Shown: in pieces, positions 26,258 to 51,526 of the stretch | How positions within the stretch are numbered: position 1 is the first letter of the stretch | Layout: each line of letters begins with the position of its first letter | NCBI GenBank assembly: GCA_026390575.1 | Contig: JAPLFR010000002.1 | Span: 62,001 to 126,000 of the forward strand | Source: Ignavibacteriales bacterium | GTDB taxonomy: Bacteria; Bacteroidota; Ignavibacteria; UBA10030 | Direction: 5' to 3' | Length of the DNA stretch: 64,000 nucleotides | Notes under the pieces: generated by a model | Databases searched by the model: none | What the model saw: only the letters and a program-made list of their open reading frames with translations | What the model was told of the DNA's origin: nothing | Made by a program: the position numbers and the translations under genes

Positions 26258-27013
26258 TTACCAGCTGCCGGAGGCACCGCCGCCGCCAGACATTCCACCA
26301 CCGCCGCTAAATCCACCGCCGCCGCCAAATCCACCTCCACCAAATCCGCCACTGCCAAAACCGCCACCATAGCCCCAACCGGAAAAATAGCTATGACCGC
26401 CTGAACCGATAATCGATCGTCGCCGTGACGTCATCATCGGCATGAGAACGAAGATAACAAAGAGGATGACTAATGTCACAAGTCCAGCTGATGCGGCAGG
26501 TGCTCTTTTCCCTTTATTGTCTGCATGATACTCGCCGGCGGTTGCGCGCATAATCGCATCAACACCGGTGACGATGCCGCCGAAATAATTATCAGCTTTA
26601 AAGTACGGAGTAATTTCCTGGCGGATGATCTGCGATGTTATAGCATCAGTGAGCACGCCTTCCAATCCATAGCCTACTTCTATTCTCATTGCATGATCTT
26701 GTTTTGCAATGAGAAGCAGCACGCCATTATCCTTCTTCGCTTGACCAATCTTGTTTTCTGTAAAAGTTTTATTGGCATACTCTTCAATACTCTCGCCTTC
26801 GAGCGAACGAATCATGAGAACAACAACCTGCGTAGAGGTTGAATCCTCAAAGCTTTTCAGCAATTGATCCAACTGCTGCCATTCCTGAAAGCTCAGTGTG
26901 TTTGTGAAGTCTGAAACACGTTGTTCAAGCTTCGGGATTTTCGTTTCTGCAGCAGCAAATGCACTGCATATAACGATCAAAAGAACAAGAACAACCCAGC
27001 GAAAATTTTTCAT
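26258..27013 (-). CDS. YgcG-like TPM-domain membrane protein
   Basis: A 251-residue exported TPM protein. The signal peptide is MKNFRWVVLVLLIVICSAFA. The TPM domain includes RVSDFTNTLS, STQVVVLMIRSLEG, KDNGVLLLIAK and EVGYGLEGVLTD. A membrane helix (about 178-195) is followed by a Gly/Ser/Phe-rich tail ending GASGSW. It follows lemA by nine bases; LemA and YgcG-type proteins are commonly neighbours. Confidence 0.88.
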   Translation of the reverse strand: MKNFRWVVLVLLIVICSAFAAAETKIPKLEQRVSDFTNTLSFQEWQQLDQLLKSFEDSTSTQVVVLMIRSLEGESIEEYANKTFTENKIGQAKKDNGVLLLIAKQDHAMRIEVGYGLEGVLTDAITSQIIRQEITPYFKADNYFGGIVTGVDAIMRATAGEYHADNKGKRAPAASAGLVTLVILFVIFVLMPMMTSRRRSIIGSGGHSYFSGWGYGGGFGSGGFGGGGFGGGGGFSGGGGMSGGGGASGSW

Positions 27014-27778: not shown

Positions 27779-28156
27779 ATGCGGATTTATCTTCATTCAA
27801 AAATCCATAAAGCAACAATCACAAACGCAAATCTTCATTACGTTGGTTCTATTACAATCGATGAACGATTAATGAAGCTGGCCGATTTGTGTGAGTACGA
27901 AAAAGTGCTCGTCGTTGATAATACCAACGGCCAACGGCTCGAGACTTACGTCATCAAGGGAAAGAAAGACTCCGGTGTCATCGGCATCAATGGCGCAGCC
28001 GCTCACCTTATGCACAAAGGCGATGAAGTAATCATTATGTCGTTTCAGATTTCTGACCGCCCTAAGAAACCTGTCAACATTCTTGTTGATCGTAAGAATC
28101 AATTTATAAAATATCTCAAAGAAAAGTCCGAGATGCGGGATGCAGATGGATGTTAA
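27779..28156 (+). CDS. panD: Aspartate 1-decarboxylase
   Basis: Makes beta-alanine for pantothenate and CoA. The 125-residue precursor self-cleaves between Gly23 and Ser24 (HYVGSITID) to expose a pyruvoyl group. SKIHKATIT and [18 protein letters not shown] are typical. It is a lone plus-strand gene between lemA and rho; I see only a weak promoter candidate upstream (TTGCAA, 17 bases, TACTTT). Confidence 0.96.
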
Positions 28157-32895: not shown

Positions 32896-35235
32896 CTATT
32901 CCTTGTCGAGAGAGTCCGGTTTCAGCACAGGGTTTTTCCTTTGTTCATTCTCTTTATCGATTCGCGGAAAAATCGGCTGATGTTTCACTGTATCCTTTTC
33001 AAATCTCATTGTATTTCTTTGAACACTGTCTGGACCAAACGATTTTTGTGGCGGAGACATCGGCAGATGTTTCACTGTATCCTTTTCAAATCTCGTTGTA
33101 TTTCTTTGAACACTGTCTGGACCAAACGATTTTTGTGGCGGAGACATCGGCAGATGTTTCACTGTATCCTTTTCAAATCTCGCTGCGTTTTTCTGAATAC
33201 TGTCTGAACTGAACGATTTTATGATTTGTGGGTTATTTTTCGTTTTCATTGTATCAATCTTTATCGTATCAGATTGCTGAACTTCTAAGGATCGTTTTGA
33301 CGCAGCAAGCGCATACATTGTGCCTTTGTGATCATTTATTACCCGCTTGTATTGTATTATCGCACTATCCGGTTGTGCAAGACGATTTTCCATGATCCAT
33401 CCAATCGCATATTCACTCTTAGCTGCAAATGGTGATTTTGGAAATAATTGTATAATAGAACGGAGTGTTTCAATTGCTTTTTCGTATAGTTGAGCATCAA
33501 CTTGTTTTTCGGATCGTGCATAGTATTCCGAGGCAGAATCCGTTTTCACCGTTGAATTTGTTTTTCGAAGGAATCGACGCGCTTCATCTGCATAAATCGA
33601 CTCAGGAAAATCGCGATCAAGACGCAAATGGTATTCTTCTGGTGCAGGGAGTTTCTTTTCCGGATTAATTCTAGAAAGCTCTGCAAGTATGTAAAGAATA
33701 CGCGGACTGCGGGAATGATTATAACTCCATACAAGAGACTGATTATACCAAGTGAATGCTGAATCCGGCACCACAACTTCTGAATAGAATATATCACCTA
33801 GCTCCTGCGCAGCAATAGACTTGAGTATACGAAGCGAGTCAGCGCTTGGGAGCACAGGCTGGACAACAACTTGTACGGGTTTCCGCTTTGTTGTATCTGA
33901 GACAACATTCTTTGTCTTAAGGGAATCGATATGGGAAATTACAGAGAGCGAATCAACGCGTGTAACTTTTCGATGTGTTGAATCAGCAGCTATGGTATTG
34001 AGCGTGTCGAGAACTATTTTGTGCGTAGTATCACTGAGAACGAATAACAAACTATCCGCTGTATTCAATCGATGCCATGCATCAAAATAGCGGGTGAGCG
34101 CTATAAATTTTCTACGCCCCTCTGCTATAACGCTTGGTCCTGTTGCAGCGTTCACTTCTGAATAATATTTCAGCGCTTGCTGGTAATTACCAATCTCCTT
34201 CTCGAACATTGATCCGAGTTGATATGCAGAACGTACAGCGTACTCGGTGCGAGCGTACGTCGTGTCCACATAAATATATTCGGCAATTGCATCGGCTCGT
34301 CTTCCGCTTGCGGCATAGTTATTCGCTCGCTCAAAGAGTAAAGCCGCCAAATATTCCTTATTACGGAAATCATCAATCATGGAATTAACCAGAGCCAACC
34401 CTTTGTTCTGCTCTCCCATTGTACGATAGGCGATTGACGCTTGCAATTTGCTGTAATAGTTTAAATAAATATCAGAAGTGTATTCTTCAGTTCGGAGATA
34501 CACTTCTACCGCCTTTTTATATTGACCATCTGTAAAATAAATATCTCCCACACTTCTCAGCGCATCACATTTGTCAGCATTACTATTTGCAATGGAGATC
34601 GCTTTTTCGTACTCGGCAATTGATTTATCCGTTTGGTTCATCCGGCGATAAAGTACACCGAGCAGTACGTGTCCTTGAGTTTCTATTTCATTTTCATTGC
34701 TCGTCTGAGCAGCAAGTATCACTGCATCACTCTCACGAACGCCATCATTCAATTTTCCCAATTTCTCTGCCGATCGCGCGTACCAAAGCTGTGCTTCTAA
34801 CGCCAGCGAACTGTTTGGAAATTGCGCTAGCAATTCGGCAAATTTTCGTTCTGCCTTGAGGTATTCCGCTTGATAGAAAAAGGATTTTCCAATAAGCAGG
34901 AGTGAATTATCGACTAAACTGCTGGTAGAATGAAATGCAAGAATATAGGAACATTTATCAATAACCTGTCCAAGCTTCTGTTTTGCTGTTGCAGGAATCT
35001 GATTAGCTTGCGCAGCAGGAACTTCTTTTCCCCGCGCCTGAAGAGCTGCTGTTGTGATTTCCTCTTCTGCATCACTGAACAATTTTTTTGCATTATAGTA
35101 TCCATTAAAGTACGTAACCATGTTTTCGTACCCCAACGAAATAGTATTGCCAATAGAACAGCCGTTACAGAAGAATGCCATTACAAGAAAAAAGACGGCC
35201 AGGCATAATCGGACGTAGTGTAGGTGTTTCTTCAT
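32896..35235 (-). CDS. TPR lipoprotein, PorW/SprE-like
   Basis: About 779 residues from the ATG at 35235. The signal ends in a lipobox FFCNGC. A YENMVTYFNGYYNAKKLFSD stretch right after it resembles the start of T9SS-associated PorW/SprE lipoproteins. Many TPR helix pairs follow (for example LGVLYRRMNQTDKSIAEYEKA and AYQLGSMFEKEIGNYQQALKYY, quoted in part as NYQQALKYYSEVN). The C-terminal part carries 29-residue repeats and is Lys/Pro-rich. Function is inferred; the T9SS link is supported by the sorting-tail protein at 16201-17949. Confidence 0.65.
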   Translation of the reverse strand: MKKHLHYVRLCLAVFFLVMAFFCNGCSIGNTISLGYENMVTYFNGYYNAKKLFSDAEEEITTAALQARGKEVPAAQANQIPATAKQKLGQVIDKCSYILAFHSTSSLVDNSLLLIGKSFFYQAEYLKAERKFAELLAQFPNSSLALEAQLWYARSAEKLGKLNDGVRESDAVILAAQTSNENEIETQGHVLLGVLYRRMNQTDKSIAEYEKAISIANSNADKCDALRSVGDIYFTDGQYKKAVEVYLRTEEYTSDIYLNYYSKLQASIAYRTMGEQNKGLALVNSMIDDFRNKEYLAALLFERANNYAASGRRADAIAEYIYVDTTYARTEYAVRSAYQLGSMFEKEIGNYQQALKYYSEVNAATGPSVIAEGRRKFIALTRYFDAWHRLNTADSLLFVLSDTTHKIVLDTLNTIAADSTHRKVTRVDSLSVISHIDSLKTKNVVSDTTKRKPVQVVVQPVLPSADSLRILKSIAAQELGDIFYSEVVVPDSAFTWYNQSLVWSYNHSRSPRILYILAELSRINPEKKLPAPEEYHLRLDRDFPESIYADEARRFLRKTNSTVKTDSASEYYARSEKQVDAQLYEKAIETLRSIIQLFPKSPFAAKSEYAIGWIMENRLAQPDSAIIQYKRVINDHKGTMYALAASKRSLEVQQSDTIKIDTMKTKNNPQIIKSFSSDSIQKNAARFEKDTVKHLPMSPPQKSFGPDSVQRNTTRFEKDTVKHLPMSPPQKSFGPDSVQRNTMRFEKDTVKHQPIFPRIDKENEQRKNPVLKPDSLDKE
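32981..33241. repeat. 87-bp tandem repeats inside the PorW-like gene
   Basis: Units start at 32981, 33068 and 33155. The first two are nearly identical and the third is divergent and partial. Each encodes 29 residues containing FEKDTVKH, SPPQKSFGPDS and VQRNT. The unit keeps frame, so copy number can vary without breaking the protein. Confidence 0.9.
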
Positions 35236-48241: not shown

Positions 48242-50110
48242 TTACGTTCTCCCAAACCGCTTATCGAGTTCTTCTAATGGAATTTTCACAATCACCGGCC
48301 TGCCATGGGGGCATACGTAGGGCACTTTCGTAAGAAACAAATATTCGATCAGCACAACCATCTCTGTTACGTTCAACCTATCCCCCGTTTTAATCGCTGC
48401 TTTGCAAGCAAAAGATTTTGCCAGATTGTCCCGTACATCTTTCACACCGGAGTGTTCGTTGTTTTTGAATTCATCCAGCACTTCCTGCAAGATCTTTTTT
48501 TCGTTCCCAATTCGTACATCCGCTGGAATACCTTCTATCACAACCGTGTTTTTACCAAAGAGCCGCATATCAAATCCAAGACGTACAAGATCCGGCAGCA
48601 ATTCTTTTACTAAGGCATAGTCGCTTGCGCCCAGATCAACGGTTTCCGGAAACAGAAGCTGCTGCGATGATGGCAGAGTGTTCTCAAAATTCGCCATCAC
48701 ACGTTCATAGAGAATCCGTTCATGCGCAGCGTGCTGATCAATTATCATCAGTCCATTGTGAATCTGTGAAATGATATATTTATTGTGCGCTTGCCAAATA
48801 GGTCTGCTTTCCGGCATCTGCGATTGATCCAGCGCCGATCTTTGCCCAAGAATGCGATTGAGCGAGGATGAAGAGGCAGTCGCGTCAAACGGCAACCGAG
48901 ATTCTGAACTTGAAGCAGAAGATCGAATATCATCAAGACCGATTATATTCGGTGTTGTTGGCACTGAATGTTCGCCAGGCCGAACGTCGGGACGAAGTGG
49001 GAACACCGGTGCACCAGTTTGATCGATAACTCCTTGTTTCCATGCGTGTTCACTAAATTGGAATTTGGCATCAAACGGCGAAACCGCGTTTCCATCTCGA
49101 AACGCCATTGATGGAATCAAATCATTCGCCGCAAGCGCCTTCCGCACAACCGACAGGATAATGCGATAGACATTCGATTCGTTTTCAAACTTCACTTCCA
49201 TCTTCGATGGATGCACGTTGACATCAATTTTTTTCGGATCAATCGTAAGATTCAGAATAAAGAACGGAAATGATCCTTTTTCCAACAAATGTTCGTATGC
49301 TTGAAAAACCGCATGGTTCATCATTCTGCTGAAAATGAATCGCCGGTTAAGAAAAACAAATTGTTCTACGCGGCTCTTGCGCGCAAAGTTTGGTTTGCCG
49401 AGAAATCCGTTCACTGTCATCAATTCGTTGGTGTCGTCAAACTTGAACATCGAGCCAAATTGCGACTTGCCAAATACTTCCGCCACACGCCTTTCAACGT
49501 TTTGCGCTTTTACATCGAGCATGACTTCGTCGTCGCTTGCGTAGAACCATTCAACTTCAGGATATGCAATCGCCATTCTCACAATCACATCGGTTATGTT
49601 CTTAAGTTCGGTATGGCGGGTTTTTAGAAAATTGCGGCGCGCCGGAGTATTGTAGAACAAATTGCGTACTGTAATATTTGTACCGCGTTCCAGCGCTGAT
49701 TTGGATTTCTCAATGGTCTCGCTGCCCTCAATCCGGATGTGCGTTGCGAGATCATCAGCATCTGTTCGAGTTTTTAATTCCACTTGCGCAACCGCCGCTA
49801 TAGAGGCAAGCGCTTCGCCTCGAAATCCAAGCGTCCGGATTTCTTCCAGATCACTTGCCGAATGAATCTTGCTCGTTGCATGTCTCCGGAATGCGAGTGA
49901 CGCATCCTGTTCGGACATTCCTTCGCCGTCGTCCACTACTTGGATGAACGCTTTGCCTGCATCTTTAACGATAACGCTGATACGCGTCGCCTTGGCATCA
50001 AGTGAGTTCTCAATTAACTCTTTGACAACAGCTGCAGGACGCTGCACTACTTCACCTGCGGCAATTTTGTTGGATAACTCGGGTGATAATATGTGAATTT
50101 TAAAAGCCAC
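48242..50110 (-). CDS. mutL: DNA mismatch repair protein MutL
   Basis: A 622-residue MutL. The GHKL ATPase has KIAAGEVVQRPAAVVKELIE, DDGEGM and TLGFRGEALASIA. The C-terminal domain has the metal-binding endonuclease motif DQHAAHERILYE (DQHA-xx-E-xxxx-E) and CPHGRPVI, so it should nick DNA like the MutL of bacteria without MutH. Its promoter must lie in or beyond the inverted-repeat cassette directly upstream. Confidence 0.97.
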   Translation of the reverse strand: MAFKIHILSPELSNKIAAGEVVQRPAAVVKELIENSLDAKATRISVIVKDAGKAFIQVVDDGEGMSEQDASLAFRRHATSKIHSASDLEEIRTLGFRGEALASIAAVAQVELKTRTDADDLATHIRIEGSETIEKSKSALERGTNITVRNLFYNTPARRNFLKTRHTELKNITDVIVRMAIAYPEVEWFYASDDEVMLDVKAQNVERRVAEVFGKSQFGSMFKFDDTNELMTVNGFLGKPNFARKSRVEQFVFLNRRFIFSRMMNHAVFQAYEHLLEKGSFPFFILNLTIDPKKIDVNVHPSKMEVKFENESNVYRIILSVVRKALAANDLIPSMAFRDGNAVSPFDAKFQFSEHAWKQGVIDQTGAPVFPLRPDVRPGEHSVPTTPNIIGLDDIRSSASSSESRLPFDATASSSSLNRILGQRSALDQSQMPESRPIWQAHNKYIISQIHNGLMIIDQHAAHERILYERVMANFENTLPSSQQLLFPETVDLGASDYALVKELLPDLVRLGFDMRLFGKNTVVIEGIPADVRIGNEKKILQEVLDEFKNNEHSGVKDVRDNLAKSFACKAAIKTGDRLNVTEMVVLIEYLFLTKVPYVCPHGRPVIVKIPLEELDKRFGRT

Positions 50111-50115
50111 TTATA

Positions 50116-50570
50116 AATGATTTCCAATTTCCAAATGTCAATTGTCGATTAATGTGAATTATTTCCTATTCTGTTTTGCTGTTTTTGCTGATGCCGCAAA
50201 TATTGCAACAAGTTCATACACTTCTTTTAAAGGCGTTTCTCCCTTATCTTTTGCCACAATATTTAGTTCCAATAAGTATTCAATCCATAAGGCAGTCTCA
50301 TCAGCTTCTTCCTCTACAATACCAATTTTATTGATGAAATCAGCGCGAGATCGCGCTTTACATGCCGCACGATAGTTCGCAGCCACCGATGTTGCAGATC
50401 TAATTACTTGTCGTGAAAATATATCAACTTCTCTTGAGCGAGGCAATGAAGTAACCAATCGGATAACCGACAATGACATCTCTTTTGTTCGTCTTTTCAA
50501 TTCTTCGGAAGTCATATCATCTATGGCCTATGAAAAATTAGCAATTGGAAGTCGGCAATTGGCAATCATT
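50116..50570. mobile_element. Small cassette with terminal inverted repeats around a four-helix bundle gene
   Basis: The left end (50116-50150, AATGATTTCCAATTTCC...) and the reverse complement of the right end (50536-50570, AATGATTGCCAATTGCC...) agree at 26 of 35 positions by my alignment. The ends enclose a single gene, 50159-50515, and fill nearly all of the mutL-ftsY gap. No obvious target-site duplication is visible. It looks like a small non-autonomous mobile unit. Confidence 0.5.
50159..50515 (-). CDS. Four-helix bundle protein (S23/IVS-type)
   Basis: A 118-residue protein of the family found in 23S rRNA intervening sequences and scattered in Bacteroidota-like genomes. It has the usual VTSLPRSREVDIFSRQVIRS, then ATSVAANYRAACKARSRADF and KIGIVEEEADETALWIEYLL. 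Function unknown; homologues form pentamers. It carries the only gene inside the inverted-repeat cassette. Confidence 0.92.
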   Translation of the reverse strand: MTSEELKRRTKEMSLSVIRLVTSLPRSREVDIFSRQVIRSATSVAANYRAACKARSRADFINKIGIVEEEADETALWIEYLLELNIVAKDKGETPLKEVYELVAIFAASAKTAKQNRK

Positions 50571-50584
50571 AGCTCAACTGCTCA

Positions 50585-51526
50585 TTAACTCACCTCAAAC
50601 AAAGCATCGACAAATGCGCGGCGATCAAAGACTTGAAGGTCATCAATCTTTTCGCCAACACCGATAAACTTCACAGGCATCTTCATTTCATGACTGATGG
50701 CAAGCACAATCCCGCCTTTTGCAGTTCCATCAAGCTTTGTCAGCACAAGTCCGGTGAGCTCAACAGCTTCGTTAAAATGTTTCACTTGCTGCAGGCCGTT
50801 TTGTCCGGTCGTTGCATCGAGCACTAACAATACTTCGTGCGGAGCACCGGGCAGACGTTTTGCCATTACCCGCCTAATTTTTTTTAATTCTTCCATCAAA
50901 TTTGTTTTCGTATGCAGACGACCCGCTGTATCGATGATAACAACATCGGCTTGCTTCGAGAGTGCTGAGTTGATTGCATCAAATGCGACTGACGCCGGAT
51001 CTGCACCATGCGATTGTTGTACAATATCTACACCGGCACGTTGCGCCCAAATTTCGAGTTGTTCATTTGCCGCCGCGCGGAAAGTATCCGCCGCTCCGAT
51101 GACAACCTTATGGCCTGCTTGACGGTACTGATATGCCATCTTGCCAATCGTTGTCGTTTTACCCGCTCCATTCACTCCGACAACCATCACCACAAACGGC
51201 TTGGCCGATGCGGGCAGAATGTTCAAGGATGATTCTTTTCCGTCATCGACATGCAGAACCGTTCCAATTTCTTCCTTCAATAAAGAAATAAGCTGAGATG
51301 GTGATTCGTACTTCTCTTCTTTTACACGACGTTTCAGGTGAGACAAAATAACATCCGTCGTCTGCACACCAACATCGCCCGCTATCAAAATATCTTCCAA
51401 CTGACTGAGCAGTTCGTCGTCGATCGTACTCTTGCTTGCGGCAAGCTGCTGCACTTTGCTGACGATCGAATCCCGCGTCTTAGCAAGTCCGGCTTTAAGC
51501 TTGGAGAATGTATGAAAAAATCCCAT
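50585..51526 (-). CDS. ftsY: Signal recognition particle receptor FtsY
   Basis: SRP-type GTPase for membrane protein targeting, 313 residues, without the long acidic A domain of Escherichia coli. The N domain (residues 1-90) precedes the G domain: P-loop GVNGAGKTTTIGKMA, ADTFRAAANEQL, DTAGRLHTK, TKLDGTAKGG. It lies two bases downstream of pgsA on the same strand. Confidence 0.97.
   Translation of the reverse strand: MGFFHTFSKLKAGLAKTRDSIVSKVQQLAASKSTIDDELLSQLEDILIAGDVGVQTTDVILSHLKRRVKEEKYESPSQLISLLKEEIGTVLHVDDGKESSLNILPASAKPFVVMVVGVNGAGKTTTIGKMAYQYRQAGHKVVIGAADTFRAAANEQLEIWAQRAGVDIVQQSHGADPASVAFDAINSALSKQADVVIIDTAGRLHTKTNLMEELKKIRRVMAKRLPGAPHEVLLVLDATTGQNGLQQVKHFNEAVELTGLVLTKLDGTAKGGIVLAISHEMKMPVKFIGVGEKIDDLQVFDRRAFVDALFEVS

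Follow-up and report, generated by a model that had tools for sequence, protein, structure and literature searches.

An S23 gene between mutL and ftsY and its inverted heptad arms: a putative class of small mobile units in bacteria

Genes of the S23/IVP family are common and scattered in bacteria, and they have no known function. One of them stands between mutL and ftsY in the genome of an Ignavibacteriales bacterium, within the 64-kb stretch of DNA analyzed here (the window). Why should a lone gene of this kind sit in that spacer, and are the repeats on either side of it the ends of something that moves? The first-pass annotation of the window had proposed a miniature mobile unit, or a unit mobilised by a host enzyme.

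The unit between mutL and ftsY

The 35-nt ends on the two sides of the gene had been described as imperfect inverted repeats. This holds exactly, with 26 of 35 positions matching when one end is compared, ungapped, with the reverse complement of the other, and the pair does enclose one gene alone (Table 1). The encoded protein belongs to the family PF05635 (23S_rRNA_IVP; E 2.8e-15, 56.9 bits versus a gathering score of 33.8), and it has a solved relative, 2rld, an entry of five chains with one sequence. The local inverted-repeat score of the ends is 28. Of 4,731 pairs with the same geometry placed elsewhere in the window, none scored as high; first-order shuffling of both flanks gave such a score in 10 of 5,000 trials, and the ungapped 26/35 match appeared in 0 of 400 flank shuffles. 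Tandem Repeats Finder reports 7-bp tandem arrays in both arms (ATTTCCA at 50120-50134 and AATTGGC at 50536-50566) and a single further 7-bp array in the whole 64 kb, of 2.1 copies, at 27924. Two repeats of other kinds were seen in the window: an 87-bp unit in three tandem copies, 92% matching, at 32964-33220, and a tandem array of CACCGCCGCCGCCAAATC type with periods of 18 and 15 at 26275-26368.

Table 1. Features at the mutL-ftsY spacer, in window coordinates
Feature	Position	Strand	Description
mutL, downstream neighbour	48242..50110	-	ORF; IAAGEV motif; strand shared with the S23 gene
Arm downstream of the S23 gene	50116..50150	none	degenerate heptads ATTTCCA ATTTCCA AATGTCA ATTGTCG; inverted relative to the other arm
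S23/IVP four-helix-bundle gene	50159..50515	-	118 aa; PF05635
Arm upstream of the S23 gene	50536..50570	none	degenerate AATTGGC-type heptads; inverted relative to the other arm
ftsY, upstream neighbour	50585..51526	-	ORF; strong matches in 41/41 genomes searched; strand shared with the S23 gene

In the predicted RNA of the unit, the arms pair with each other; the fold energy of the whole unit showed no greater stability than that of shuffles (z -1.14). No transposase was found in the unit, which carries the PF05635 gene only and so does not qualify as an insertion sequence. An Rfam scan of the region gave no credible match and no rRNA match; the unit, placed between mutL and ftsY, does not lie inside an rRNA gene.

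Heptad arms at other S23 genes

About a dozen PF05635 genes are present in the genome of the window, and a relative of the window protein is encoded in 53 of 61 genomes, namely this genome and 60 relatives. The expectation that other four-helix bundle genes would have the same ends was borne out for the design and not for the letters: what they share is a degenerate 7-8 bp repeat architecture, not one fixed 35-bp sequence. On its upstream side the S23 gene has an array of a 7-8 bp unit, which returns downstream in roughly inverted form, and the repeat unit varies by gene, being AGTCTTTG at L009, GAGCAAT at L010 and GATTGCG in genome G024. We found this design in a set of 80 loci from about 18 phyla, on plasmids (of cyanobacteria, Chloroflexota and Bacteroidota), and in 33 loci mostly of another S23 subfamily. 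In searches of phage and plasmid databases, phages seldom had S23, and cyanobacterial plasmids often did.

How specific is this architecture to S23 genes? Scored at one fixed threshold, at least one flank holds a 7- or 8-bp array at 135 of 157 S23 genes versus 49 of 3000 random positions, and both flanks do so at 80 of 157 versus 0 of 3000, the background being 3,000 random positions of C16, a contig of the genome of the window. Neither flank has a clear array at that threshold in the remaining 22 of the 157. These 157 genes come from about 18 phyla, and, with a few loci shared between sets, the figure of 157 slightly over-counts the distinct genes; gene starts at some loci were picked by rule. 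Autocorrelation of the flanks peaks at lags 7, 14 and 21, and at a distance of 400 bp these peaks have vanished or are strongly reduced. Moreover, the upstream and downstream arms of the same gene match each other better than mismatched pairs do: the mean score is 34.6 versus 17.9 at 75 loci (0/2000 permutations), 28.1 versus 17.3 at 48 loci, and 36.8 versus 16.5 at the 33 loci drawn mainly from the other subfamily, with no permutation reaching the observed mean in either of the latter sets.

The units are intergenic, and the genes on their two sides usually point the same way; both neighbours are co-oriented at 80 of 122 loci, with orientation judged from the longest ORFs. Some stand inside defence-type operons of plasmids (L078/L079, L080, L082 and L083), their places there being DISARM drmD / MmeI, cas6 / cas4 and DUF1156 / Swt1/HEPN genes. 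Across C16 (732 kb), strict 7/8-bp arrays occur six times, once at an S23 gene. Weak arrays alone were discarded as a signal because their count on C16 at the weak threshold equals that of the reversed-sequence control, which makes them uninformative. CAGTTAT/CTGATAA heptad arrays without S23 were noted at G000:C16 410237, 415284 and 589500; two of the three are no more than about 3 kb from the S23 gene C16:412103, whose arms are of similar dialect.

Do the arms belong to the gene or to the place? Across different sites, the more alike two S23 proteins are, the more alike their arm dialects (partial Mantel r 0.276 with GC controlled, 0/999 permutations; 113 distinct loci, pairs with a common neighbouring gene left out), and the association includes pairs from different phyla, for example L165 and L180. 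The length of the repeat unit, 7 or 8, follows the S23 tree of 112 rows with 6 changes versus 19.5 expected in shuffles (0/500), and 8-bp units are found at 15 of 18 loci of one S23 clade, picked after inspection, versus 2 of 62 elsewhere. Two related Mucilaginibacter units at different sites, L225 and L228, are homologous between the arms only, and their nearly identical arms are better conserved than their diverged gene. Likewise, the alignment of the window unit with L012, which occupies a different place in this genome, runs from arm to arm. Related units at unrelated sites with shared terminal inverted repeats (L225/L228, L012/L014 and the Mucilaginibacter pairs described below) resemble miniature inverted-repeat elements (MITEs) in this respect. 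In all these comparisons gene and arms co-vary as one unit, which shows co-inheritance and is no proof of binding.

Full, decayed and empty sites

Empty mutL-ftsY sites, which the first-pass annotation had named as a sign of mobility, are indeed present in congeners, one of which likely keeps a decayed remnant. In G001, G002 and a number of further relatives, about 50 nt separate the ftsY stop from a conserved mutL motif; the genome of the window has 519 nt there, and G005 has 197 nt with a likely S23 relict. A residual hairpin was suspected in the spacer of the closest congener, G004, and rejected after no convincing fold was obtained. Elsewhere, the site of L010 is empty in G004 and that of L015 in G004 and G005, each being full in another congener, and some congener sites retain the arms alone. 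A TGAACA-like direct repeat is seen at the L010 site, where the empty sites are too diverged for a target-site duplication to be compared.

Five congeners carry a unit between gatB and tpiA, where the dialect of both arms switches jointly and the protein switches along with the arms. There the S23 proteins of G000 and G001 are 95% identical (FtsY 82%), while those of G000 and G004 are 53% identical (FtsY 94%). The S23 identities run opposite to the FtsY similarities, which suggests that units have replaced one another horizontally at a site used repeatedly. Several losses of S23 at old sites are clear, and the patchy distribution is partly the work of deletion, not insertion; loss and homologous transfer account for part of the pattern.

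Mucilaginibacter genomes carry the arms in quantity. Their pyrR-pyrB spacer holds full units, arms-only forms and forms with an S23 tail, and also a second, unrelated S23 unit with arms of its own. In the same spacer (L332, L333, L335, L339 and L340) a separate palindromic repeat, CGTCATTGCGAGGTACGAAGCAATC ... GATTGCTTCGTACCTCGCAATGACG, stands between the arms of the S23 unit or replaces them. The arm core occurs in 6 to 85 copies per Mucilaginibacter genome, and the reversed pattern in 0. Among the 51 copies in G138 are 8 inverted places, 61-458 bp apart, versus 0.3 neighbours expected. Copies without S23 that have the same ends do exist: the sequenced Mucilaginibacter pairs are S23-less miniatures, sometimes nested. 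At positions 376-619 of L373, from G138, two forward arms are followed by two reverse arms, suggesting that one miniature was inserted into another. Furthermore, at single sites a miniature of one dialect gives way to a miniature of another between species that retain about 94-97% flank identity on one side or both.

Sites of the unit are found full, decayed, arms-only or empty, and S23-less miniature pairs are multicopy within genomes, as read from the assemblies. These observations support a unit, composed of gene and arms, that would spread and leave miniature copies. The proposal of a miniature mobile unit stands as far as copies with shared ends, empty sites and homology bounded near the arms are concerned; a target-site duplication and a dedicated enzyme were not found. 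No transposase or integrase belonging to the unit was detected at the units examined, the full-length unit encoding S23 alone, and among the sites compared there was no gain of a unit dated at nucleotide precision.

What else could produce such arms? Chance, or slippage in an AT-rich spacer, might yield an inverted repeat, and the arms do look like low-complexity tandem repeats, of a kind whose copy number varies between strains in heptad arrays (PMC4990558, PMC4692102). Yet shuffles and same-geometry controls fail to reproduce the match, and arm pairing is gene-specific in three data sets; we find this origin hardly credible. Another reading makes the arms a cis-acting device for RNA processing or autoregulation of the S23 gene, a long stem serving as a target for RNase III cleavage or S23 binding, with horizontal transfer, homologous recombination at shared intergenic sites and frequent loss in place of transposition. 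It would suit the reuse of the same sites by different S23 types (gatB-tpiA and pyrR-pyrB), the co-orientation of neighbours at 80 of 122 loci, the pairing of the arms in predicted RNA and the cleavage of the Coxiella IVS stem by RNase III (PMC4990558). However, a regulator bound to its gene would not be expected to give rise to miniature pairs that lack S23, nor to tens of copies of the arms in one Mucilaginibacter genome, and unrelated sites carry related units whose homology stops at the arms. We consider such a device unlikely to be the explanation.

The arms might instead be hairpins on which a host HUH (Y1/RAYT) transposase, or some other enzyme encoded on the chromosome, acts in trans to move them, with S23 as a passenger or accessory. 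REP/RAYT systems offer a precedent for the in-trans movement of small hairpin repeats, and the genome of the window has 13 matches to Y1_Tnp. On the other hand, the heptad-array arms are without REP-like features, no Y1 gene accompanies any of the units examined, and both the dialect of the arms and the length of their repeat unit go with the S23 protein, a link that a passenger would not need. We give this possibility little credence. The explanation that we favor, and regard as probable, is a widespread class of units, each an S23 gene with inverted 7/8-bp-repeat arms, in which recognition of its own arms by S23 would putatively be needed for spread. Since arm sequence and unit length co-vary with the protein, we infer that the heptads of a unit's arms, as DNA or as the RNA stem that the arms form, are recognised by the S23 oligomer encoded between them. 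This recognition would be required for the spread of the unit and of its miniature derivatives, while cutting and joining would be done by host enzymes or by another enzyme in trans.

Related elements and significance

In the open-access literature, subscription papers and preprints being outside the scope of the search, we found no general description of such units, which is no proof of novelty; the element type looks to have been described piecemeal only. The closest parallel is the intervening sequence (IVS) of 23S rRNA in Leptospira, Coxiella and others, about 430-450 nt long, in which an S23-family ORF lies within complementary, stem-forming ends, as it does in the window unit. In Coxiella, tandem GACAGAT heptads precede the S23 ORF and a 28-bp terminal stem is present (PMC4990558); with heptads and stem, the rRNA IVS is built in the same way and may be viewed as a unit inside rRNA. 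The origin of these sequences has lacked an explanation for over 25 years (PMC4990558), and their mobility is likewise unexplained. The present units differ in being placed between protein genes and in reaching many copies per genome; their dialects are specific to the type of S23, and they have S23-less miniatures.

Intergenic 7-bp tandem arrays like those of the window unit are also found as cyanobacterial STRRs and as the heptads of Xanthomonas and Nostoc. Xanthomonas has convergent inverted heptad pairs, GGGAATC (PMC4692102), and CCCCAAT arrays flank an S23 gene in Planktothrix (L078). STRRs, however, were described without a linked gene, and their tie to S23 units is our proposal. In the Nostoc tRNA-Leu intron, P6b hairpins are built on one of two heptad classes (TDNGATT and NNTGAGT), one class having been repeatedly replaced by the other (PMC4476775); unlike our units, these lie within a group I intron with no S23 gene, and the relation is by resemblance only. 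Planktothrix CCCCAAT, Xanthomonas GGGAATC and the Nostoc intron heptads may be relics of S23 units.

MITEs and REP/RAYT repeats are likewise short intergenic inverted-repeat units in many copies with no transposase of their own. They differ in that the arms described here are tandem heptads of varying sequence, and in that the full-length relative, which in MITEs encodes the mobilising transposase, encodes S23 only. Avd, of the diversity-generating retroelements, is a four-helix-bundle pentamer structurally related to S23 that binds nucleic acid and reverse transcriptase. By contrast, a reverse transcriptase is absent at the S23 unit: the two RVT_1 matches of the genome of the window are on contigs C10 and C1, whereas the unit is on C2, which sets it apart from a diversity-generating retroelement. 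None of the reverse transcriptases and Y1 transposases of this genome is linked to the unit.

How far might this extend? The 23S rRNA IVS would be the same unit lodged in rRNA, and solitary STRR-like heptad arrays would be relics of it. In its widest form, which we advance tentatively, S23 would define a mobile-element class of near pan-bacterial reach, overlooked until now: a small nucleic-acid-binding oligomer, free of nuclease and transposase domains, would spread itself and its miniature derivatives via inverted arms of tandem heptads, protein and arm code diversifying together, and IVSs, STRRs and the Nostoc P6b hairpins would be its products. The shared anatomy, a gene with inverted heptad arms whose code is tied to the protein clade, provides one testable explanation for both S23 genes and rRNA IVSs. 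Through it the heptad arms become candidate ligands of S23 proteins, and intergenic heptad repeats such as STRRs gain a possible source. The units sit in defence operons and in conserved operons, and their stems could influence how these operons are expressed.
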